Source of the DNA: Clostridia bacterium
GTDB taxonomy: Bacteria; Bacillota; Clostridia; Oscillospirales; CAG-272
NCBI GenBank assembly: GCA_017937135.1
Contig: JAGBEE010000017.1
Coordinates: forward strand, 1-61,948
DNA length: 61,948 bases
Reading direction: 5' to 3'
Below the pieces are notes generated by a model. That model was not told the origin of the DNA, did no database searches, and saw only the letters and a program-made list of their open reading frames with translations. The position numbers and the translations under genes were made by a program. This document shows positions 32,843-42,009 of the stretch, in pieces (positions within the stretch are counted from its first letter, which is position 1; every line of letters begins with the position of its first letter).

Positions 32843-34305
32843 TGTTCACCTCTAAAGCCAAATTCAATCAAATCAATTAAGCCTGTTCCTTCGTACCTTA
32901 AATATAAGGGGTACACTCCCATAGGTACATCAATTTTTATTTTTTTCGTGTACCAAACGCTTTGCGGCTCTATATTAATTTTTCCTGCTAAAATTTCCCC
33001 AAGAAAAATGGAAATTTCGCCCCTTGGCTCGCCCAAGCAGGTGCGGTATTTTATGTAAAACTCGGACACGCCCTCCACCGAAAAGTACTTGTAGCCGATC
33101 AAAGTACCGTTTTCAATTTCGGAAATTATGCGTTCACCGTTTTTGCAAATTATGTGGGGCAATGTCATTTCCACGCATTGACCTCTTGGCATTTTTCCAT
33201 TTGTTAGGTTGCAGCAAATTACGGCGGGATATGCGCCGACCGCCTTTAGAGGTGCGCCGTTTAAGCCGCAGGAGGTCATTTCCACCTGTGGGATTGCGCC
33301 GTTTTCCAAAATTTCAATTTTTTCGGCACATCCCTGGCGGGAAAGCTCGGTTTTTGTGGTGTGGCGGTGGTAGAAAACGTACCACTCACCGTTTATTTTT
33401 TCAATGCCGCCGTGGTTGTTGCCCGTGCGGTTTAGCTTATCCTTTTCAAGCCTGCCGTTTATACCAATGTCACCGTTTGAAACGATAACCCCTTGGTATT
33501 TAAAATCCCTGTCGGGGTAGTCGCTTGTGGCGTAGCAAAGCTCGTGACCGTTAAAGGAGGAGTACACAAAGTAGTATTTTTCGCCGATTTTCCTCATTGA
33601 GCTTGCCTCAAAGAAGGGGTGAGCCTCAAAGTCTGTGCCCTTAACATACCTTGGCAGGATGCGCACAGGCTTATGCTTTACGGTTAGCATATCGTCGCAA
33701 AGCTCCACGGTGTATGCGCCCATGACGCCCTCGCCGTTGTTTATTACCTCTTCTCTTGTCTTGCGGAACATATTCATTTGAGTGGAAATGGCGGACTCTG
33801 TGTCCATTTTTTCCTCAAAATCCCACTGCATTCCGTAGTAAAGGCGGATGGTGCCGTTATCATTAAAAAGCCCGGGGTCAAAGATAACTCCGTCGGTCAT
33901 GATGGTGCCGTCAGGGTTCTTAACATAGCCCAAAAATTCAAATCCCCCCGCAGGAGTGTCGCATTTTGCCACGCTCATCACATAGGAGCAGTCGGGATAA
34001 TGGCGGGCGCTTGAATAGTAAAGATAATACCTTCCGTCATTGCCCCGTACTACGTCGGGTGCAAACATATAGGGAAAGCGCTCATAATTCGGCTCGTTTT
34101 TTGCCTTGTATATAACGCCCTCATATCGCCAGTCCTTAAGGTCGGTCACCGGGGCTGAGTAGCACACATAGTCAAGCATACAAAATGCCTCGCCGTTTTC
34201 CTTATCGTGGGAGCCGTAAACATACACCCTGTCCCCAAAAACGTGGGGCTCACCGTCGGGCACATACTCGCAAAGGGGCATATAGGGATTAAAAGCCTGC
34301 TTCAT
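32839..34305 (-). CDS. Glycoside hydrolase family 43 protein with C-terminal beta-sandwich
   Basis: 488 residues. The five-bladed propeller of GH43 (arabinofuranosidase/xylosidase clan) covers about 1-330: NPYMPLCEYVPDGEPHVFGDR holds the early catalytic-base region, FAPDVVRGNDGRYYLYYS the middle Asp region, and EAHPFFEASSMRKIGEKYYF the general-acid Glu region. Residues about 360-488 look like a CBM6-type carbohydrate-binding sandwich (GVSEFYIKYR ... LYLRYEGTG). No signal peptide, so intracellular. The gene is richer in G+C than its surroundings: I counted 31/60 at 33901-33960 and 29/60 at 34021-34080, against 24/60 at 26101-26160, which suggests recent transfer. Confidence 0.85.
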   Translation of the reverse strand: MKQAFNPYMPLCEYVPDGEPHVFGDRVYVYGSHDKENGEAFCMLDYVCYSAPVTDLKDWRYEGVIYKAKNEPNYERFPYMFAPDVVRGNDGRYYLYYSSARHYPDCSYVMSVAKCDTPAGGFEFLGYVKNPDGTIMTDGVIFDPGLFNDNGTIRLYYGMQWDFEEKMDTESAISTQMNMFRKTREEVINNGEGVMGAYTVELCDDMLTVKHKPVRILPRYVKGTDFEAHPFFEASSMRKIGEKYYFVYSSFNGHELCYATSDYPDRDFKYQGVIVSNGDIGINGRLEKDKLNRTGNNHGGIEKINGEWYVFYHRHTTKTELSRQGCAEKIEILENGAIPQVEMTSCGLNGAPLKAVGAYPAVICCNLTNGKMPRGQCVEMTLPHIICKNGERIISEIENGTLIGYKYFSVEGVSEFYIKYRTCLGEPRGEISIFLGEILAGKINIEPQSVWYTKKIKIDVPMGVYPLYLRYEGTGLIDLIEFGFRGEQ

Positions 34306-34404
34306 AAAACACCTCGAATTTCAGTTTATTTTATTGTACCATATAACCCTTTTCTTTTCAATAAAAACAAAAATAAATATTTTTGCAAAAAATGAAAAAA
34401 AGTA

Positions 34405-34433
34405 TTGCAAAATGAAAAAACTTGTGATATAAT
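34405..34433 (+). promoter_or_regulatory. Promoter of tRNA-Glu
   Basis: TTGCAA (34405-34410) and TATAAT (34428-34433), spacing 17 bases, ending 19 bases before the tRNA. Confidence 0.8.
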
Positions 34434-34452
34434 ACATAAGCATTTGACAAAC

Positions 34453-34527
34453 GGCCCGTTGGTCAAGCGGCTAAGACACGGCCCTCTCAAGGCTGAAACA
34501 TGGGTTCGATTCCCGTACGGGTCACCA
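34453..34527 (+). tRNA. tRNA-Glu (anticodon CUC)
   Basis: Acceptor GGCCCGT (34453-34459) pairs with ACGGGTC (34517-34523), followed by A and an encoded CCA. The anticodon arm is CGGCC-CTCTCAA-GGCTG with CUC at the centre of the loop, which reads GAG. The T arm is GGG-TTCGATT-CCC type. A terminator follows directly, so it is a single-tRNA transcript. The unmodified CUC anticodon makes it a second, non-essential glutamate isoacceptor, the kind often used as an integration site. Confidence 0.95.
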
Positions 34528-34529
34528 GC

Positions 34530-34569
34530 AAAACGAAAGCACTCCACTTGGAGTGCTTTTTTCGTTTTG
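34530..34569 (+). terminator. Terminator after tRNA-Glu
   Basis: AGCACTCC (34538-34545) pairs with GGAGTGCT (34550-34557), extended by AAAACGAAA/TTTCGTTTT, with a T-run inside. Confidence 0.88.
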
Positions 34570-34600
34570 TTGTGATTCCGTACGCTCATCGACCCATCTT

Positions 34601-34984
34601 CAAAATGCAATCGCATTTTGAATTGGGTTCGCATTTCTGACGAAAGCCGTTGTCAGCTTGCTAGCATAAGGCTCGGCAGAAATAGTTCGCTTTGCGAATC
34701 TTCCCGTTCAGGTCACGGGAGGATACTATCCTCCCCTACAATATTTGGGGACGCATTGTATGCCCTGTCGTTCCGCGTCGGAACCTTGCAAGACAGGGCA
34801 TCTTCCCGTACAAATTTTCGTTAGCTCCTTGCTTAACGAAAATTTGCTTGTTCGCACTCGCTTAATTGAGAGATATATTTCGCATTTTCGGCTAAAGCCG
34901 ACAGGAGCTCGCTCACAAGAGTCTAGACGAAAATAGCTCCCTTCGGGAGCCTTCCCGCTTGCTTATACAATGCAAAAGTACGGG
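34601..34984 (+). repeat. Structured repeat block 1 downstream of tRNA-Glu
   Basis: No protein gene. The block is a chain of hairpins linked by conserved short sequences: CAAAATGC/GCATTTTG (34601-34620); an element opening GGGTTCGC at 34625 and closing CTTCCCG at 34706, with inner stems ATTTCT/AGAAAT and TTCGC/GCGAA; GGGAGGATA/TATCCTCCC (34717-34735); the 116-base unit at 34747-34862; and a second CGC-ATTTTCG ... CTTCCCG element (34880-34957) with ATTTTCG/CGAAAAT and GCTCCC/GGGAGC. The GGGTTCG ... TTCCCG frame echoes the T arm of the adjacent tRNA. Related elements make up block 2 at 37464-37724. Confidence 0.75.
34747..34862 (+). repeat. 116-base repeat unit, copy 1
   Basis: Starts GGGGACGCATTGTATGCCC. 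Stem ATGCCCTGTC/GACAGGGCAT encloses GTTCC/GGAAC, then CTTCCCG, then the 13-base stem CAAATTTTCGTTA (34811-34823) with TAACGAAAATTTG (34834-34846), then CTTGTTCGCACTCGCT. It matches copy 2 at 37488-37602 with four substitutions and one single-base gap by my alignment. Direct orientation. Confidence 0.85.
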
Positions 34985-35002
34985 ACATTCAGTCTTTTTA
35001 TA

Positions 35003-35060
35003 AGGTGTCGTAATTAAATTACACCTAAAACTTTACAATAAAATATTTGTGTGTTATAAT
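35003..35060 (+). promoter_or_regulatory. Promoter of the GH89-like gene with adjacent inverted repeat
   Basis: TTTACA (35032-35037) and TATAAT (35055-35060), spacing 17 bases, end 30 bases before the start codon. Immediately upstream AGGTGT (35003-35008) pairs with ACACCT (35021-35026) around AATT/AATT, which could be an operator or a weak terminator for the repeat block. Confidence 0.75.
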
Positions 35061-35090
35061 CAAATTAATACAAGAAAGGTTTTTAAGATT

Positions 35091-37364
35091 ATGAAATTGA
35101 CGGTAGTATATCCTGCGCGCGCTCACAGTGCGTACAAAATAGCGGCAGAAAAGTTTTCAGAGTTTGCAATGCGCGTGTTTGGGGTCTCCTCGATGCTTAT
35201 CACCGATGAGGAATTTACAGGAGCAAATGATGGAGATATAACAGTGCTTATCGGTCACGACGGTGAAAATGACATTGCGGCAGAGCTGTATTTGTCGAAA
35301 AAAACTGATTCGCCTGGTATAAGATACTGCACCGATGATTATTGTATCAGAAGTGTTACTGATGGTAAAAACAAATATCTTTGGCTTGCCGGAGGGCGCC
35401 CGCGTTCAACTATATATGCGGTATATCGTTATTTTGAGCTTTTCTGCTCGTGCCATTGGTTTTGGGACGGAGACAGAGTTTCATCCATCGAGCAAATGCC
35501 GTTTGATAATATTGATATTAGTGAATCGCCACGTTTTGATTATAGAGGACTTCGCTATTTTGCACACCGTAGTCTACATCGCTTTCAGGCGGAGCACTGG
35601 AGCTTTGAGGATTGGAAGCACGAAATAGATTGGATGCTTAAAAAGAGGCTTAATATCTTTATGATGCGTATGGGAATGGATGACGTTTGGCAAAAGGCTT
35701 TTCCAGAGCTTGTTTCCTATCCTGAATATGACATGCCTTTGGCTGAGGCAGGGGACGGCTATGATGACAGAAATCTTTTTTGGTCGCTTGAATATCGTGG
35801 AGAGTTAAGAAAGAAGATACTGCTTTATGCCTTTGAGCGCGACCTTATGCACCCAGAGGACTGCGGAACTATGTCGCACTGGTATTCGCGTACGCCTTGT
35901 GAGTTTTTAGATAAAGAAAAACCCGAGCTACTACCTCAAGCTACTAAAGACTATTCCGAGCCGACAGGTCGTGTATTTGATATAAGACAAAAGAGAAATT
36001 TTGATTATTATGCAAGGCTTACCGATACTCACGTAAAGGAATACGGCAAGGGTGAAATATTCCATACGATAGGACTTGGTGAAAGACGTTATTCAAACGA
36101 TCCCGAGGAAAATAAGCGTATGAAGCTTTACGTTTATCGTAAGATATGCTCACACATAAAAGAAAGGTATCCGAATGCTCCCTTGTTTATCGCAAGCTGG
36201 GACTTATGGTACAGCTTTAAAGAGGAAGAGGTTCGCAGTCTTGTTAGTGAGCTTGACCCTTCACAATCACTGATTTTTGATTACACCTCGGATACGGTGA
36301 AAGAAAACAATTTCACAAAATGGGGCATTGTAAATAAATTCCCGTGGATATTCGGTATTTTTAGTGCATTTGAGCCTAATTCTGAAATACGTGGATTTTA
36401 TAAGTATATTAATGAGCGCATAAAGATAGCTAAGGAAGACCCGATGTGCCGTGGACTTGTGCTATGGCCAGAGCTTTCACACGGGGATCCATTTGCAATC
36501 GAATATCTTGTCAACAATGCATGGGAAAAAGAAACCTTGTCCATTGCTGAGCAGACCGACAGATACTGCATGGCAAGGTACAATACCGATATAAGCAAGG
36601 AAATGATGCGTCTTTGGCGAGATTTTATGCCGATAGTTGAGCTTGAGTCGTGGAGTATGGATAGTAAATACCCCGAATCGATGTGTGGTGATCTTTTTGT
36701 TCGTCCGCTTGGCAAGATAGATTTTTCTAATAAAAATGCAGATGCGTACAGAAGTCGAGCTTCGCTTATATTTGAGCAAAGAGATGTCGCACTCAGCATT
36801 CTTAAGCGCCTTAGCACGCTTTCATGCTCTGATGAAATGACAAAAAGGGATTTTTACGATATTGCAAGAACGGTAGTCAGCCGTTTTACAAACGGAGCTA
36901 TTCTTTATGTAGAGTCGCTATATACTCAAAGGGCAGATGTTGATAAGCTTGAGCGCGCAATGACAAAGGCTGTTAATATGCTTGAATGTCTTACAGATAT
37001 TCTTTCTTCTCACGTGGACTACTCTATGCTCTCTACTCTTAGTCTTTTGCAAAAGACTGAAACTACAAATCCGAATTTTGAGACCACGTTAAAGCACAAT
37101 GCCGAAAGCTGGTATTGCAGAAGCTATATTTACGAAAACGCCGAATATCTATATTTACCTGAGCTAAAGAATCTTTTCGGACAGATGCTTTTGTCAGTAA
37201 GAGAGGATAAGGAGTGTAATGCTGAGGCTATAAACACACTTAACGAAATATCCCTGAAGGAGTATTACGATACACCGCTTTCCAAAATGAAGCGCAGAAA
37301 TGTGAGCTTATATGATGCGCTTGTTAAATCAGCTGAAACAATAAAATCGTTAGAGTTAATCTAG
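35091..37364 (+). CDS. GH89-like alpha-N-acetylglucosaminidase
   Basis: 757 residues. The N-terminal mixed alpha/beta domain (about 1-130, YLWLAGGRPRSTIYAVYRYFE) and a TIM barrel from about 150 (FEDWKHEIDWMLKKRLNIF) follow the NAGLU/GH89 plan, in which WxxWExEIDWMALxGIN is the counterpart. PWIFGIFSAF parallels the NAGLU segment before the nucleophile, and GLVLWPELS (Glu near residue 461) aligns with the NAGLU nucleophile region APEG. A helical C-terminal domain completes it. GH89 enzymes remove terminal alpha-linked GlcNAc, as on gastric mucin. Divergence is large, so the specificity may differ. No signal peptide. It sits alone between two repeat blocks with its own promoter. Confidence 0.62.
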   Translation: MKLTVVYPARAHSAYKIAAEKFSEFAMRVFGVSSMLITDEEFTGANDGDITVLIGHDGENDIAAELYLSKKTDSPGIRYCTDDYCIRSVTDGKNKYLWLAGGRPRSTIYAVYRYFELFCSCHWFWDGDRVSSIEQMPFDNIDISESPRFDYRGLRYFAHRSLHRFQAEHWSFEDWKHEIDWMLKKRLNIFMMRMGMDDVWQKAFPELVSYPEYDMPLAEAGDGYDDRNLFWSLEYRGELRKKILLYAFERDLMHPEDCGTMSHWYSRTPCEFLDKEKPELLPQATKDYSEPTGRVFDIRQKRNFDYYARLTDTHVKEYGKGEIFHTIGLGERRYSNDPEENKRMKLYVYRKICSHIKERYPNAPLFIASWDLWYSFKEEEVRSLVSELDPSQSLIFDYTSDTVKENNFTKWGIVNKFPWIFGIFSAFEPNSEIRGFYKYINERIKIAKEDPMCRGLVLWPELSHGDPFAIEYLVNNAWEKETLSIAEQTDRYCMARYNTDISKEMMRLWRDFMPIVELESWSMDSKYPESMCGDLFVRPLGKIDFSNKNADAYRSRASLIFEQRDVALSILKRLSTLSCSDEMTKRDFYDIARTVVSRFTNGAILYVESLYTQRADVDKLERAMTKAVNMLECLTDILSSHVDYSMLSTLSLLQKTETTNPNFETTLKHNAESWYCRSYIYENAEYLYLPELKNLFGQMLLSVREDKECNAEAINTLNEISLKEYYDTPLSKMKRRNVSLYDALVKSAETIKSLELI

Positions 37365-37392
37365 TTCGACACTCAAATATAACGGCTCACCA
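37365..37392 (+). repeat. tRNA-3'-end-like sequence after the GH89-like gene
   Basis: TTCGACAC (37365-37372) follows the stop codon directly and ACGGCTCACCA (37382-37392) comes nine bases later. The tRNA-Glu 3' end reads ACGGGTCACCA, one base different. The same two words recur at 38581-38603, and all three are followed within 20 bases by a terminator. Confidence 0.65.
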
Positions 37393-37400
37393 AAAACAAA

Positions 37401-37430
37401 AAAGACAGGTTTCACACCTGTCTTTTTGTT
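37401..37430 (+). terminator. Terminator after the GH89-like module
   Basis: AAAGACAGGT (37401-37410) pairs with ACCTGTCTTT (37416-37425), followed by T's. Confidence 0.88.
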
Positions 37431-37463
37431 TTTGACAATCCTTACGGGTTGCGCACACATCTC

Positions 37464-37724
37464 AAAATTTGCTCGCAAATTTGGATTGGGGACGCATTGT
37501 ATGCCCTGTCGTTCCACGTCGGAACCTTGTAAGACAGGGCATCTTCCCGTACAAATTTTCGTTTGCTCTTGCTTTACGAAAATTTGCTTGTTCGCACTCG
37601 CTAATTTGAGGAATCGGGTTCGCATTTTCGACCAAGACCGATGTCAGCTCGCTAGCATAAGGTCGGGCGAAAATAGCTCCCTTTGGGAGCCTTCCCGCTT
37701 GCTTTTGCAACGCAAAAGTACGTC
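37464..37724 (+). repeat. Structured repeat block 2
   Basis: No protein gene. It contains AAATTTGC/GCAAATTT (37465-37482), the second copy of the 116-base unit (37488-37602), an element opening GGGTTCGC at 37617 and closing CTTCCCG at 37697 with stems ATTTTCG/CGAAAAT (37624-37630 and 37668-37674) and GCTCCC/GGGAGC, and a final CTTTTGC/GCAAAAG hairpin. Compared with block 1 the stems differ in sequence but keep pairing, while the connecting words are conserved. Confidence 0.75.
37488..37602 (+). repeat. 116-base repeat unit, copy 2
   Basis: Near-identical direct copy of 34747-34862 (differences at G/A, C/T, two A/T and one missing C). The hairpin CAAATTTTCGT/ACGAAAATTTG is kept, although the two A-to-T changes at its apex shorten it by two pairs. 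Confidence 0.85.
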
Positions 37725-37774
37725 TCCCTCTAGCCTAAATGAGCTTTCAATTCATTAACATTAACAATATAGAT

Positions 37775-38452
37775 TTACAATAAAACTCCCAGTTTTATCA
37801 AACGTGATCGAATAGAACCTACTCCTCTTTGATGGATTGAACTCAATTCTTTCACAGTTTTTCCTTGCTTGTATTCCGATAGAAGTTGCTCATCCTCTTC
37901 TTTCGTCCATTTTTTACCATGCTGAGGGTGTTTTTTTTCAAGTTTTTCCTTATATTTGAGTTTGTTGTCAAAGTACAATGACATTTCAAAAAGATGCAGC
38001 TTTAACTCTTTGTCTAAATCCTTTATGACCTCGCCAGTCAATATATTTACCCCTTCGCTAAGACCTTGCAAAATATCTATATATTGCGTTAATTTTTCCT
38101 TAACTGTTTTATTTTTGTTTTTTAATATTTTTGGGGGTTCTTCTAAATCCGACGCAACACCTTCTATTGGATATTCTGGATCTATTATTTCATATCTATT
38201 TTGCTCAAATCTTTTTGAAACTAAAACTTTTTCGGTTTTATCTATTAAATCATAGTTCATTTCAAGTGTGTCGATTTTTTTAAGAACGGTTTTTTCTGCC
38301 GAAACTGGAAATCCAGTTCTATATTTTTTCACCCCAAAAAGTTTATAACCCAAATATTTATTCAATATCAAAGCATCATTTCCTGAAACATTATAATAGT
38401 AACCGCCTTGCCTTATAATCAATATTCCATCTGGATTTATATTATTTACCAT
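37775..38452 (-). CDS. MutS domain I-like protein with C-terminal SANT/Myb-like HTH
   Basis: 225 residues. The first 90 residues (ILIIRQGGYYYNVSGNDALI ... GFPVSAEKTVLKKI) follow the pattern of the MutS mismatch-recognition domain I, FFRxGDFYExFxxDA ... GVPxHxxxxYLxKL, without the rest of MutS. The mismatch-wedge Phe of canonical MutS (FYE) is replaced by YYN. A helical, charged middle follows (about 115-175), then KWTKEEDEQLLSEY and IRSRLIKLGVLL (about 180-225), a SANT-like helix-turn-helix. Such lone MutS-I domains occur in mobile elements. AGGAG precedes the ATG; TATAAT near 38497-38492 on the minus strand may be its -10. Function unknown; DNA or nucleotide binding is likely. Confidence 0.6.
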   Translation of the reverse strand: MVNNINPDGILIIRQGGYYYNVSGNDALILNKYLGYKLFGVKKYRTGFPVSAEKTVLKKIDTLEMNYDLIDKTEKVLVSKRFEQNRYEIIDPEYPIEGVASDLEEPPKILKNKNKTVKEKLTQYIDILQGLSEGVNILTGEVIKDLDKELKLHLFEMSLYFDNKLKYKEKLEKKHPQHGKKWTKEEDEQLLSEYKQGKTVKELSSIHQRGVGSIRSRLIKLGVLL

Positions 38453-38580
38453 TTCATTTTTCTCCTAACATTCTATTAGTGTCAATTTCATATTATATAT
38501 CACTTATATGATATCACAAAATACTATCTAATTCAATAAACTTTGAAAATAAACGCCTTTGGTCTCGGACGCGTGTATCA

Positions 38581-38603
38581 TTCGACACCTCTACGGCTCA
38601 CCA
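38581..38603 (+). repeat. tRNA-3'-end-like sequence after the MutS-I module
   Basis: TTCGACAC (38581-38588) and ACGGCTCACCA (38593-38603). The spacing is exactly that of a tRNA: seven-base T loop, five-base stem half, seven-base acceptor half, discriminator A and CCA. There is no matching 5' half upstream, so it is not a tRNA gene. Confidence 0.65.
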
Positions 38604-38611
38604 TCAAAATC

Positions 38612-38637
38612 AAAAGGACACTCGAGTGTCCTTTTTG
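38612..38637. terminator. Palindromic terminator before the fucosidase gene end
   Basis: AAAAGGACACTC pairs with GAGTGTCCTTTT as a perfect 24-base palindrome (38612-38635). It closes the module and also lies just after the stop of the leftward GH29 gene. Confidence 0.85.
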
Positions 38638-38641
38638 CCTT

Positions 38642-39868
38642 TTATATCTCGATTTTTGCGATTTTTACAACGAGGTTTTCGCCATATAGCTGTGGGGTGG
38701 TGAGAATTGTTACCTTGTCTTTGGTTTGAGTGAAGAATACATCCTCGTTATTGTCTAACCATTTAATTGACTTGATTTTTTTGTCAAATGTAAAGACGTT
38801 AGTAGAATTGGGGTTGCCTTTTGAAAGCTCGACATTGACATTTCCTGAGACCTCAAGGTCGTAGGCAAAGAAATAGTAGCAATTATTTCCTTTAAGAAGG
38901 AAGCTCTTTTCCTTGTTTTCAATTTCGATTTCGGCTGGGCGCGGTAAATATAGTGCCTCCGAATAAATATCAACCCACTCGCCAAGTGCCTCAAGCATAG
39001 CCTTATCAAGTGGGCGAAGCTGACCGTTGCCCATAGGTCCAATGTTAAGAAGATAGTTTGCACCATATCTTCTGCAAACACAGAAGTCCTCAATAATTTC
39101 TCTCATTGATTTAAAGTTGAAATCTCTTTTTGCATATCCCCAATAATTGCCAAAAATTTGGCACATTTCACTTGCTATATATTTCGGTGAATCCTCTAAA
39201 TTGATAGCGTTAGGGCGACCACGCTCAAAGGTTACAGAGTCAAGCTCTATATGTCCAAGCTCGCCACGGGCAGAAAGCCCTGTATTATTTATAATCATGG
39301 CATCGGGCTGGTATTTTCTGATAAGAGAGTAAAGCTCATCCTCCTCCCAGTTTTCATCCTTTTTGTCCCACATTCCGTCGAACCAAAGACCACCTATTTT
39401 GCCATAGTTTTTACATAAAATTTCCACACTTGCGCGTAGATATTTTAAATATTCTGGGAAATTCTCCTTGTAGCTTTTTTCGTGCCAGTCAAGAAGGGTG
39501 TGATAGAAAAATGGAACTATTCCCTGCTTGTTACATTCATCAACAAATTCACGAATCAAATCACGACCTGCTAAGGAGTGGGGTGCGTCATATTCATTCA
39601 AGCCACAGGTATCATAAAGAGAAAAGCCATCGTGATGTCTTGTTGTTATTGTAATATACCTACAGCCTGCACCCTTAGCAGCTAAAACAAGGTTTTTTGC
39701 CCAGTCCTTATCTGGCGAGAAGGAATAAAAAAGCTTTTCATAATCCTTTGGAGTAATGTTTATATTATACGCCCATTCTCCCTTACCGTGTACGCTATAA
39801 AGCCCAAAATGCACAAACATTCCAAAGCCTAAATTTTCAAAATCCTTAATACGCTTTTCAACTATCAT
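38642..39868 (-). CDS. Alpha-L-fucosidase, glycoside hydrolase family 29
   Basis: 408 residues. GH29 retaining fucosidases cleave terminal L-fucose. Typical blocks: FGMFVHFGLYSVHGKGEWAY (14-33), TTRHHDGFSLYD (75-86) and GGLWFDGMWDKK, where the Asp at 164 is the expected nucleophile. A short C-terminal beta-sandwich follows from about 320. No signal peptide, so it acts on fucosylated oligosaccharides inside the cell. The ATG at 39868 has AGGTGG upstream; a GTG three codons earlier overlaps that site and is less likely. Confidence 0.9.
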   Translation of the reverse strand: MIVEKRIKDFENLGFGMFVHFGLYSVHGKGEWAYNINITPKDYEKLFYSFSPDKDWAKNLVLAAKGAGCRYITITTRHHDGFSLYDTCGLNEYDAPHSLAGRDLIREFVDECNKQGIVPFFYHTLLDWHEKSYKENFPEYLKYLRASVEILCKNYGKIGGLWFDGMWDKKDENWEEDELYSLIRKYQPDAMIINNTGLSARGELGHIELDSVTFERGRPNAINLEDSPKYIASEMCQIFGNYWGYAKRDFNFKSMREIIEDFCVCRRYGANYLLNIGPMGNGQLRPLDKAMLEALGEWVDIYSEALYLPRPAEIEIENKEKSFLLKGNNCYYFFAYDLEVSGNVNVELSKGNPNSTNVFTFDKKIKSIKWLDNNEDVFFTQTKDKVTILTTPQLYGENLVVKIAKIEI

Positions 39869-39918
39869 AAATGCCACCTTTTTGTAAAATTTATCAAATT
39901 TTAATGTCTTTTACAAGC

Positions 39919-40377: not shown

Positions 40378-42009
40378 ATGTATTCTTTTGACAGACTTCA
40401 TTACAGTATCAGAGGCTCTTATCTTGTATGGGACAGCCGTAAAAAGGGTGTCTTAAAATTAGATATGATTCATAGTCACGGACAAGACATTTTCAATGGC
40501 ATCTTGTCTATTAACTATGGCAAGAGCGCCAAAATTGGATTTGTACCCCGTGAAATTAGTGTAAAGTACGACGGTGGCGAGCAGAAAATTACTATGTTTG
40601 GCACTGACGGCACATATATTAAGGGTAATGGTAATAGTTTTCTTGTAGAAATTGCAAAGACCCACGCAAAATTCGACTATCAGATTGTTCAAAACGGAGT
40701 TATTGAGCTTTGTGACTTTAAAAATAACTCAAGCCTTATGTTTGTTCCTATTAAAGGTAGATTAGAGCTTGAAAAGCTTCGTAAGGCGGGAGAAATTACC
40801 TCTGAATTTGCAAACGTACGTGTTTTACCTGATGAAAATGGCGATTATGAATTTTCAATTGAAGCCGACTTTCTTGACAAGGGCGCTGTTCAAGCTAAGG
40901 GTATGGGCTACGACCACTATGCTGATATTGCCGAAAAGGACTACCTTGCTTGGGAGAAAAAATTCAAATGCAAGAATAAGTACGAAAAGGAATGTGCTTA
41001 CATTCTTTGGAGCAATACAATCGCTCCTTTAGGAAACTTCCATACTGAGGCTATTGTAATGGGTAAGGCTGGTATGAGTAACGTTTGGAGCTGGGACAAT
41101 GCATTTAATGCTCTTGGACTTGCTGACATTGATTATCGCATTGCTATGGACCAATTTATGATTATGTATAAGCACATCAATCGTGTTGGTAGAGTGCCCG
41201 ATGCCATTTCCGAATCCTATAAGGTATGGAACTTTGTTAAGCCACCTGTACAGGGCTGGATGTACAAGCAAATGATGAAGAGAAACCCAGAATTCGCTAC
41301 TCCTCACGCTCTTGAAGAGGTATATTTTGATATGAAGAGAAACACTGACTGGTGGCTAAACCTTCGTGGCGACGTTCCTTCATACTATCACGGAAATGAC
41401 TCAGGACAGGATAACTCAACTTGCTTTGATAAGAGCGAGCATATTGAAACATCAGAGCTTATTGGTTTCCTTTCTGTTCAGTGCTCCTTCCTTGCTGAAG
41501 CTGCTGAGATACTTAATTTCCCTACTGACAAAAAAATCTATGCACAGCTTGCAAAGGAGCTTGCTGAAAAGGCTATAAAGGACTACTGGGACGGCGAAAG
41601 GATTTTTGTTCGCCTTGCAGAAACCGGTGAGCCTTACTACTGTAATGCTCTTATGCCTCTTCGTGTAATTATTCTTGAGGATATGCTTCCAAAGGAAATG
41701 CAAGAATACATAGTTAAGCAAATTACTGAGCATCACCTATGTAAGGGTGGTATTGCAAGTGAAGCGCTTGATAGTCCTATGTTTGTTGAAAACGGCTACT
41801 GGCGTGGTGCAGTTTGGGCACCAGACGTTATAATGTTTGTTTATGCTCTTCGCAACCTTGGATATACTGACCTTGCAAATCAAATTGCAGAAAATTACAA
41901 AGCATCTGTTTGCAAATACGGCTTCAGCGAAAATACAAGTGCTATTACTGGTAAGCAGCTACGCTGTAAGGGTTATGCTTGGGCTGCTAACGCATATCAA
42001 GTGCTTTAA
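40378..42009 (+). CDS. (alpha/alpha)6-barrel glycoside hydrolase (GH63/MGH1-like)
   Basis: 543 residues. An N-terminal beta-sandwich (about 1-185) is followed by an (alpha/alpha)6 barrel from about 200 with the GH63/GH37-like landmarks NVWSWDNAFNALGLA, NDSGQDNSTCFD (candidate general acid Asp) and YWRGAVWAPDVIMFVYALRNLG (near the base Glu/Asp region). Enzymes of this clan are inverting glucosidases or mannosidases acting on short alpha-glucosides, mannosylglycerate or N-glycan glucose. Substrate not deducible. No signal peptide. It has its own promoter and terminator. Codon use is regular and suggests good expression. Confidence 0.75.
   Translation: MYSFDRLHYSIRGSYLVWDSRKKGVLKLDMIHSHGQDIFNGILSINYGKSAKIGFVPREISVKYDGGEQKITMFGTDGTYIKGNGNSFLVEIAKTHAKFDYQIVQNGVIELCDFKNNSSLMFVPIKGRLELEKLRKAGEITSEFANVRVLPDENGDYEFSIEADFLDKGAVQAKGMGYDHYADIAEKDYLAWEKKFKCKNKYEKECAYILWSNTIAPLGNFHTEAIVMGKAGMSNVWSWDNAFNALGLADIDYRIAMDQFMIMYKHINRVGRVPDAISESYKVWNFVKPPVQGWMYKQMMKRNPEFATPHALEEVYFDMKRNTDWWLNLRGDVPSYYHGNDSGQDNSTCFDKSEHIETSELIGFLSVQCSFLAEAAEILNFPTDKKIYAQLAKELAEKAIKDYWDGERIFVRLAETGEPYYCNALMPLRVIILEDMLPKEMQEYIVKQITEHHLCKGGIASEALDSPMFVENGYWRGAVWAPDVIMFVYALRNLGYTDLANQIAENYKASVCKYGFSENTSAITGKQLRCKGYAWAANAYQVL

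Follow-up and report, generated by a model that had tools for sequence, protein, structure and literature searches.

A cassette array behind a tRNA-Glu gene of a Clostridia bacterium, probably built by recombination of the large serine recombinase kind

The DNA analysed here, referred to as the window, is a stretch of 61,948 nucleotides from a Clostridia bacterium (GenBank assembly GCA_017937135.1, contig JAGBEE010000017.1), in which a tRNA-Glu(CTC) gene is followed by two modules, each consisting of a block of hairpin repeats and a single gene and each closed by a sequence resembling the 3' end of the tRNA. Its genome was searched as 1.85 Mb on 42 contigs (G000, the window being contig C21; G, C and L numbers denote genomes, contigs and loci). 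ARAGORN and Rfam both identified the tRNA (Table 1), which ends in ACGGGTCACCA. The similar word ACGGCTCACCA lies at 37382-37392 (mark 1) and 38593-38603 (mark 2), with TTCGACAC preceding both copies, and a hairpin terminator begins 6-8 bases 3' of each mark. Where the tRNA tail has a G, both marks have a C (37386 and 38597). These marks and terminators had been noticed in a preliminary description made from the letters alone, and they were confirmed: the word ACGGSTCACCA occurs three times in the window against 0.02 expected, a number reached by none of 100 shuffles. Neither mark was called as an RNA gene by ARAGORN or Rfam, and in an Rfam scan of 34300-38700 the tRNA alone passed a family cut-off. 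A genome-wide search for the word returned four copies, all at the marks or at tRNA-Glu (the CTC gene, marks 1 and 2, and the other tRNA-Glu gene), a count that is uninformative by itself.

The first module carries the anticipated GH89-like gene, whose start codon was inferred from the homologue in G006. The second had been described as carrying a MutS-I/HTH gene; its 225-aa product, encoded on the minus strand, has no match in Pfam or PADLOC, and the MutS-I label is therefore unsupported. The modules do share the plan ascribed to them, a repeat block plus a gene, but the marks belong to two classes of attachment (att) site: measured from TTCG to CCA, mark 1 is 28 nt long and mark 2 is 23 nt, which points to different kinds of site. 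No match to PF07508 (serine recombinases) or PF00589 (tyrosine recombinases) was found on the window contig, in agreement with the earlier statement that it holds no integrase; five and six matches, respectively, lie on other contigs of the genome.

Comparison with related genomes revealed that such units come and go with base-exact junctions and that different cargo occurs at the same marks. In G013, a genome of the same genus, window segments 34440-34538 and 37382-37675 are contiguous (C52 7085-7181 and 6811-7104) and overlap only in a 20-nt junction; we read this arrangement as the empty site of the GH89 cassette. In G006, a GH89 cassette with 93% DNA identity to that of the window precedes an unrelated flank, the switch falling exactly at the mark, and this flank is the direct 3' flank of tRNA-Glu in G012 (366 bp, 95%), the match starting on the first base of ACGGGTCACCA. 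The same exact start at ACGGGTCACCA was observed for a type I restriction-modification (R-M) unit on comparing G003 with G026 (716 bp, 90%), and the flank 3' of a 17-kb element in G004 matches G027 from inside the tail word (828 bp, 89%). Presence and absence with exact ends at the tRNA tail was thus seen for cassette 1 and in two further boundary comparisons. Judged by these sequences, the marks are junctions of mobile cassettes. The capture of cargo at the tRNA 3' end with att-like scars, as previously proposed, is borne out for cassette 1 (G013 and G006). Neither of the outcomes named beforehand as refuting it was observed: the arrangement varies among relatives, and unit ends coincide with the tRNA-like marks. 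The 225-aa gene is full-length in one of 96 genomes, the window's own, with partial weak matches in six others; therefore only the boundaries of cassette 2, which were seen elsewhere, are supported. The marks could also be taken for decayed tRNA genes or convergent terminator sequences without any mobility, given that only tail-like pieces are left and that no RNA gene was called at them. Since sites were seen both empty and occupied, and since the cargo at a given mark varies, we regard this as highly improbable, and decayed tRNA genes are ruled out by the empty sites.

GH89 was found in two of 29 congeners, behind tRNA-Glu(CTC) both times, and its best match among named genomes lies on a contig of a goat-cecum 'Clostridia bacterium' metagenome-assembled genome with tRNA-Glu(CTC) at 1591-1665. 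A general link between GH89 and tRNA genes was rejected: ARAGORN found a tRNA in eight of 21 GH89 loci and tRNA-Glu only at L092, the one locus of these eight for which tails were considered.

Table 1. Features of the locus and of two further contigs of the same genome, with predicted roles
Feature	Position	Strand	Remarks
tRNA-Glu(CTC)	34453..34527	+	final 23 nt (TTCG..CCA) are the predicted insertion site; 3' flank swapped in relatives
Cassette 1 left end: terminator hairpin and inverted degenerate tRNA-tail copy	34528..34595	+	inverted repeat 34503-34538/34560-34595
Tandem hairpin repeat block, cassette 1	34620..34990	+	repeats; RNA folding z -7.3 (34590-34960)
GH89 (alpha-N-acetylglucosaminidase-like), cassette 1 cargo	35091..37364	+	Pfam NAGLU; stop codon abuts mark 1
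Mark 1, putative 28-nt att junction (tRNA tail plus 5 bp class)	37365..37392	+	
Cassette 2 left-end terminator	37393..37433	+	counterpart directly 3' of tRNA-Glu in G013, G016
Hairpin repeat block, cassette 2	37486..37730	+	repeats; RNA folding z -3.5 (37480-37705)
225-aa protein, cassette 2 cargo	37775..38452	-	C-terminal part: weak relatives
Cassette 2 right arm, type common to Ccr-like cassettes	38567..38592	+	shared with G003, G007 right ends
Mark 2, putative 23-nt att junction, length as tRNA tail	38581..38603	+	
Terminator 3' of mark 2	38604..38640	+	
GH29 gene	38642..39877	-	Pfam; relatives are cassette cargo in G014, G016
Large serine recombinase (LSR) element at tRNA-Asn(GTT)	G000 C34:120-18787		28-nt site at LSR gene end
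Genes like those of the staphylococcal cassette chromosome (SCC): Cch/DUF927, two LSR genes; tyrosine recombinase match	G000 C29:8834-24245		arm behind tmRNA

Site lengths were compared in 64 loci (657 kb), both strands of which were searched for a word resembling the tRNA tail with a terminator behind it. The 60 matches comprised 36 tRNA tails and 24 scars, against none in the reversed sequence; since the loci were chosen for nearness to tRNA-Glu or repeats, they are not a random sample. From TTCG to CCA, 17 scars measure 28 nt (mark 1 among them), six 23 nt (including mark 2) and one 29 nt, a count that omits scars whose terminator the script did not recognise, such as a 23-nt scar of G004. 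All 14 scars that share a contig with tRNA-Glu lie downstream of it on the tRNA strand. A genus-wide pattern search gave 75 matches, of which 49 were tRNA tails and 26 were not; 12 of the latter measure 28 nt, eight 23 nt, one 29 nt, and five have other lengths. The 28-nt peak (12 of 26) has P of about 1e-6 if the matches are independent, and some are related by descent. A terminator was recognised at 11 of these 12 sites, the exception being G005:C3:1916. Three of the five odd-length matches and the 23-nt match of G015 were inspected, and none of these four has a terminator.

In serine integrase sites the zinc-ribbon motif of attB is 5 bp closer to the core than that of attP, according to an excerpt of PMC3783163. 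A corresponding outward shift of 5 bp is seen between the 23-nt tRNA tail and the 28-nt length of 17 of the 24 scars, and so for mark 1 and not for mark 2. The TTCG of the tRNA T-loop would accordingly occupy the attB position of the motif, and the TTCG of the element its attP position.

Serine recombinases do occur at these sites in relatives. Within the genus, the 49 contigs carrying tRNA-Glu hold eight of 53 PF07508 matches vs none of 83 PF00589 matches. Elements behind tRNA-Glu in G001, G005, G008 and G016 share a left end and, at the right end, an LSR about 95% identical among them (cut short in G016), with mostly different cargo in between; in G001, G005 and G008 the shared right end stops at GGTC, which is also in the tRNA tail. 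Relatives of the G001-type LSR were found in 50 of 146 genomes of the family, at 77 places. At the end of the LSR gene, a 28-nt TTCG..CCA site was present in 20 of 30 returned loci, against none in reversed windows and a mean of 0.3 (maximum 3) in shuffled ones. Extended regions were taken for 20 places, of which 19 were hand-picked from the 30 loci after the gene ends were known and one was a further place; the unbiased figure is therefore 20 of 30, and the count on this picked set plus eight database records is 24 of 28. Of the database records (seven from 38 phage-collection matches and one from 12 plasmid matches), seven of eight have the 28-nt site at the LSR end. These LSRs also lie on short GenBank scaffolds named 'Bacteriophage sp.' from human stool (L223-L228, L230), which may be bacterial integrative elements rather than phages. 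LSRs of another subclade (L124, L128, L134, L142) face tRNA-Arg(CCT), tRNA-Ser(GGA) and tRNA-Glu, with a similar inverted-repeat-rich stretch between LSR gene and tRNA.

An RNA gene lies 4.7-14.5 kb upstream on the same strand at 11 of 21 extended loci (the 20 picked ones plus G001): tRNA-Glu in four, tRNA-Leu in four, tmRNA in two and tRNA-Pro in one. CCGAAC stands 13-18 nt after CCA in nine of these 11 flanks, and we infer that the RNA-gene flank is the other end of the LSR's element. The dyad formed by the two arms was tested three times: with the centre fixed between T and ACGGG, which failed for the elements designated B; with a moving centre; and, on a set enlarged by 10 elements, around the centre that the B elements had given, at shifts from -4 to +4. 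In all 11 LSR-bearing elements (eight distinct), the best arm-arm dyad has one common centre, namely the sixth base counted from the CCA end. For nine elements 0-19 of 2000 shuffles reach it; for the two with the variant pair GTTTACC/GGCAAAC, 98 and 153 do.

These results bear on the possibility that the locus is a classical tRNA island, into which a tyrosine integrase acting at the T-stem/acceptor end inserted the units, with serine recombinases as mere passengers. tRNA genes are the usual target of tyrosine integrases (excerpt of PMC4383910), and one of the six tyrosine recombinase matches in the window's genome lies about 1 kb behind tmRNA. The distribution of the two Pfam families over the tRNA-Glu contigs speaks against it, and the exact 23- and 28-nt lengths, the 28-nt site at LSR gene ends and the single dyad centre fit serine integrases. 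We therefore consider this explanation improbable. A search of the genome for a tyrosine recombinase had been suggested beforehand; recombinases are indeed present elsewhere in the genome, but the evidence points to the serine type.

The flanks behind tRNA-Glu were sorted into classes. The 49 tRNA-Glu tails, from 27 of 29 congener genomes, gave 47 flanks after merging identical ones, and these fell into 19 clusters at a threshold of the analyst's choice; one is a truncated member of another, leaving about 18 classes. Seven of the eight clusters with at least two members include both CTC and TTC genes. In 24 flanks out of 47, CGAAC begins at an offset of 14 or 15 from ACCA; it has no other position within the first 60 nt (mean of 0.14 and maximum of 2 in shuffles). 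A mirrored arm is present at the terminator stem in about half of the flanks. Several flanks (L053, L062, L141, L143, L144) open with a small gene of the 23S rRNA-intervening-sequence type, identified with Pfam in the L043 copy and by eye in the others. An MGH1-like glycoside hydrolase (GH) gene at 40378-42009 of the window stands behind tRNA-Glu(CTC) in G000, G013 and G023, and behind tRNA-Glu(TTC) in G001, G026 and G027, as if the arms of both tRNA loci had been exchanged.

Flanks might instead be shuffled without a dedicated recombinase, by passive homologous recombination, for instance after DNA uptake, in which the tails, terminators and hairpin blocks that loci have in common would pair. 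The placement of the gene at 40378 behind either isoacceptor would suit this, as would the repeated, similar left ends and hairpin blocks. It fits poorly with the quantised site lengths, with LSRs at the same sites and with homology that changes over exactly where a shared word of 11 nt begins, since ordinary homologous recombination usually involves longer stretches. We hold it to be even less probable than a tyrosine integrase.

The cassettes follow a recognisable plan. Of the 18 scars of 28-29 nt, 15 have their nearest upstream open reading frame (ORF) on the same strand as the site, and at 12 the stop codon of the nearest ORF lies 0-37 nt from the site (one of these is cut by a contig end). 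Cargo recognised by family matches comprises GH89, C5 methylase, type I R-M (G003), GH3 plus GH29, and DUF4379 zinc-finger proteins with a weak nuclease match below the cut-off; the LSR-bearing element of G005 carries DndA, PglZ and BrxC-like genes. The R-M unit of G003, the left end of which shows 86% identity to the G004 left end, stands behind a 220-nt mini-unit with a 28-nt end. The same plan was seen in another genus (G176), where a Dam-like methylase gene (by eye) behind tRNA-Glu(CTC) has its stop codon 32 nt before a 28-nt scar. Within the window, the left end of cassette 1 (34528-34595) is also present in G003, G006 and G008. Homology of the GH29 region to G014:C15 and G016:C5 begins at 38641, and the GH29 gene may be what is left of a third unit, whose right end can no longer be recognised.

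Other repeats were also observed. The inverted tRNA-Glu tail copy (34560-34595), following soon after the tail, makes a long palindrome with the terminator at its centre; this copy is degenerate in the window, and its 11-base word is exact in L043 and L044. Hairpin blocks like those of the two modules often lie about 100 nt behind the tail and also occur as dispersed copies (for example C29:7928 and C5:11454 of G000), two of them within about 3 kb of tRNA-Arg(ACG) and tRNA-Ser(GGA).

The window's own genome encodes LSRs of the kind found in relatives. One, at C34:17279-18709, is 36% identical to the G001 enzyme; its 3' end contains a 28-nt word with a terminator behind it. The last seven bases of this site are those of tRNA-Asn(GTT), 18.6 kb upstream on the same strand (C34:120-195), whose flank has the mirrored arm ACACGAACC against GGTTCGT in the site. 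The C34 enzyme is thus predicted to be a member of the 28-nt kind aimed at another tRNA, not at tRNA-Glu. An LSR relative on C33 has a 28-nt word 202 nt after its stop codon, which may be due to chance since 105 of 2000 random 600-nt windows contain such a word.

The 23-nt sites led to a different group of elements. The 17-kb element of G004 carries, judged by eye, genes for type I R-M and a DUF927/Cch protein as well as two LSR genes. It ends 137 nt past the second of these, in a scar of 23 nt with the sequence of the tRNA tail. Pfam found recombinase and DUF927/Cch matches in L113 and L116, and these are absent from the window cassettes. A G004-like gene order is present on C29 of the window's genome, where a 23-nt word at a distance of about 15 kb from tmRNA closes it; the first member of its LSR pair encodes 333 aa with no match to the Resolvase domain. 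Right ends resembling that of G004 (66-72% identity across 134-137 nt; weakest E 0.009) occur in G003, G008, G014, G016 and G007, where the stretches examined contain no LSR, and mark 2 has about its last 26 nt in common with two of these G004-like ends. When the 19 flank classes were compared as dyad partners, the left arm of G004 ranked first or shared first place for mark 2 and for four of these ends, though by a modest margin over shuffles. Mark 2 modestly resembles the ends of SCC/Ccr-like elements.

Taken together, it is likely that the region is a cassette array inserted serially into the tRNA-Glu 3' end by site-specific recombination of the LSR kind. At the level of sequence, this is supported by the exact boundaries, the empty and occupied sites, the two quantised site lengths, the LSRs at the same sites in relatives and the apparent attP dyads of those LSR-bearing elements. 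The window's cassettes encode no recombinase and would have been moved in trans, for which the C34 LSR (28-nt site, tRNA-Asn) and the Ccr-like LSR pair on C29 behind tmRNA are candidates. The junction sequences suggest a model in which a circle with arms P and P' would recombine with the tRNA tail. The tRNA would keep its own sequence up to the core and receive its last bases and terminator from the element, and the old tail with the old terminator would be left downstream as the scar. The window's own cassettes, whose arms show no dyad, may have followed the same course.

Several observations weigh against serial insertion by an LSR. The left arms of the window's cassettes do not form the expected dyad with the right arms, and the two ends of cassette 2 differ in type, with no junction found inside it. 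Stretches of up to 3 kb upstream of the 24 scars yielded no LSR, and a search for LSR remnants upstream of LSR-less scars gave nothing better than E 0.07 and none at 1e-4. The 26 non-tRNA matches of the genus-wide search compare with 32 in a reversed-pattern control, so that the count alone is not above chance and genome-wide counting of marks alone is uninformative. The 23-nt right arms match the Ccr-like P' modestly, since 5-41 of 500 shuffles do as well. Finally, a tyrosine recombinase match lies about 1 kb behind tmRNA (C29:22304-22828 in G000, C23:17416-17934 in G027), on the same arm as the Ccr-like pair; the tmRNA islands may therefore be composite, with a tyrosine-driven end.

The closest known systems are the ssrA islands of Dehalococcoides and SCC. 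The Dehalococcoides islands stand in tandem behind tmRNA, bounded by tail repeats; the gene of their CcrB-like serine recombinase overlaps the att site at its end, and 15 of the 31 islands are without an integration module (McMurdie et al. 2011, PMC3146451). Their target is tmRNA, whereas here it would be two tRNA-Glu genes, with tRNA-Leu, tRNA-Pro, tRNA-Asn and tmRNA for related enzymes; many one-gene cassettes, an LSR clade with 28-nt sites and units bringing a terminator further set the present system apart. SCC (ccrAB, cch) targets rlmH (PMC6222049). It resembles our elements in the DUF927/Cch protein with two LSR genes near the att site (L113, L116), in insertion at the 3' end of a conserved gene and in units without a recombinase, and differs in that the target here is an RNA gene (tRNA-Glu), not rlmH, and that the window cassettes are linked to it by one arm only. 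The additive flexible islands at tRNA-Lys of Ca. Methylopumilus have repeats of the last 20 nt of the tRNA and units of 1-63 genes; an excerpt of PMC10872708 names no recombinase and no quantised site lengths for them. Tycheposons, defined in the same source as tyrosine recombinase elements at a tRNA, differ from the present elements, given that none of the 83 PF00589 matches is on a tRNA-Glu contig. Streptococcal integrative and conjugative elements (ICEs) with serine integrases at rumA also have the att site in the 3' end of the integrase gene, with a protein gene as target (PMC4701971). A regenerated tRNA gene with a displaced tail fragment is shared with the tyrosine-integrase islands of Islander (PMC4383910). 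A mycobacterial survey mentions tRNA overlaps only for tyrosine systems in the excerpt (PMC10654092), and a 2014 reference paper states that serine integrases are not known to use tRNA genes as insertion sites. In the literature searched, mostly outside subscription journals and preprints and partly as excerpts, we came across no description of serine integrases that use a site based on the T-loop at tRNA genes.

We give an even chance to the broader idea that this is an integron-like cassette system run by serine integrases, in which recombinase-free one-gene cassettes, with a half-site at the stop codon and a terminator at the start, are moved in trans and exchanged between isoacceptor tRNAs across a Clostridia family. 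A tRNA or tmRNA would serve as the fixed entry site because the enzyme would read the near-universal T-loop GTTCRA in attB and a 5-bp-shifted copy in attP. Integrons are arrays of mostly one-gene, mostly one-strand cassettes with the site right after the stop codon, a fixed anchor, the tyrosine recombinase IntI and attC sites. As in integrons, the cassettes mostly have one gene and mostly lie on one strand, most 28-nt cassettes hold a gene that ends at the site, and the array is anchored at a fixed site; unlike in integrons, the sites are of the serine type and the anchor is a tRNA gene, a distinction drawn without a search for IntI or attC. Each unit here begins with a terminator and should therefore need its own promoter, unlike integron cassettes.

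A serine integrase clade at tRNA and tmRNA 3' ends, if true, would break the rule that such enzymes do not use tRNA genes, and would suggest T-loop recognition with a 5-bp offset between attB and attP. Such enzymes would have predictable targets in many bacteria, which would make them useful for DNA insertion tools. The recombinase-free one-gene cassettes, if they are what they appear to be, would represent a second solution to the problem that integrons solve.

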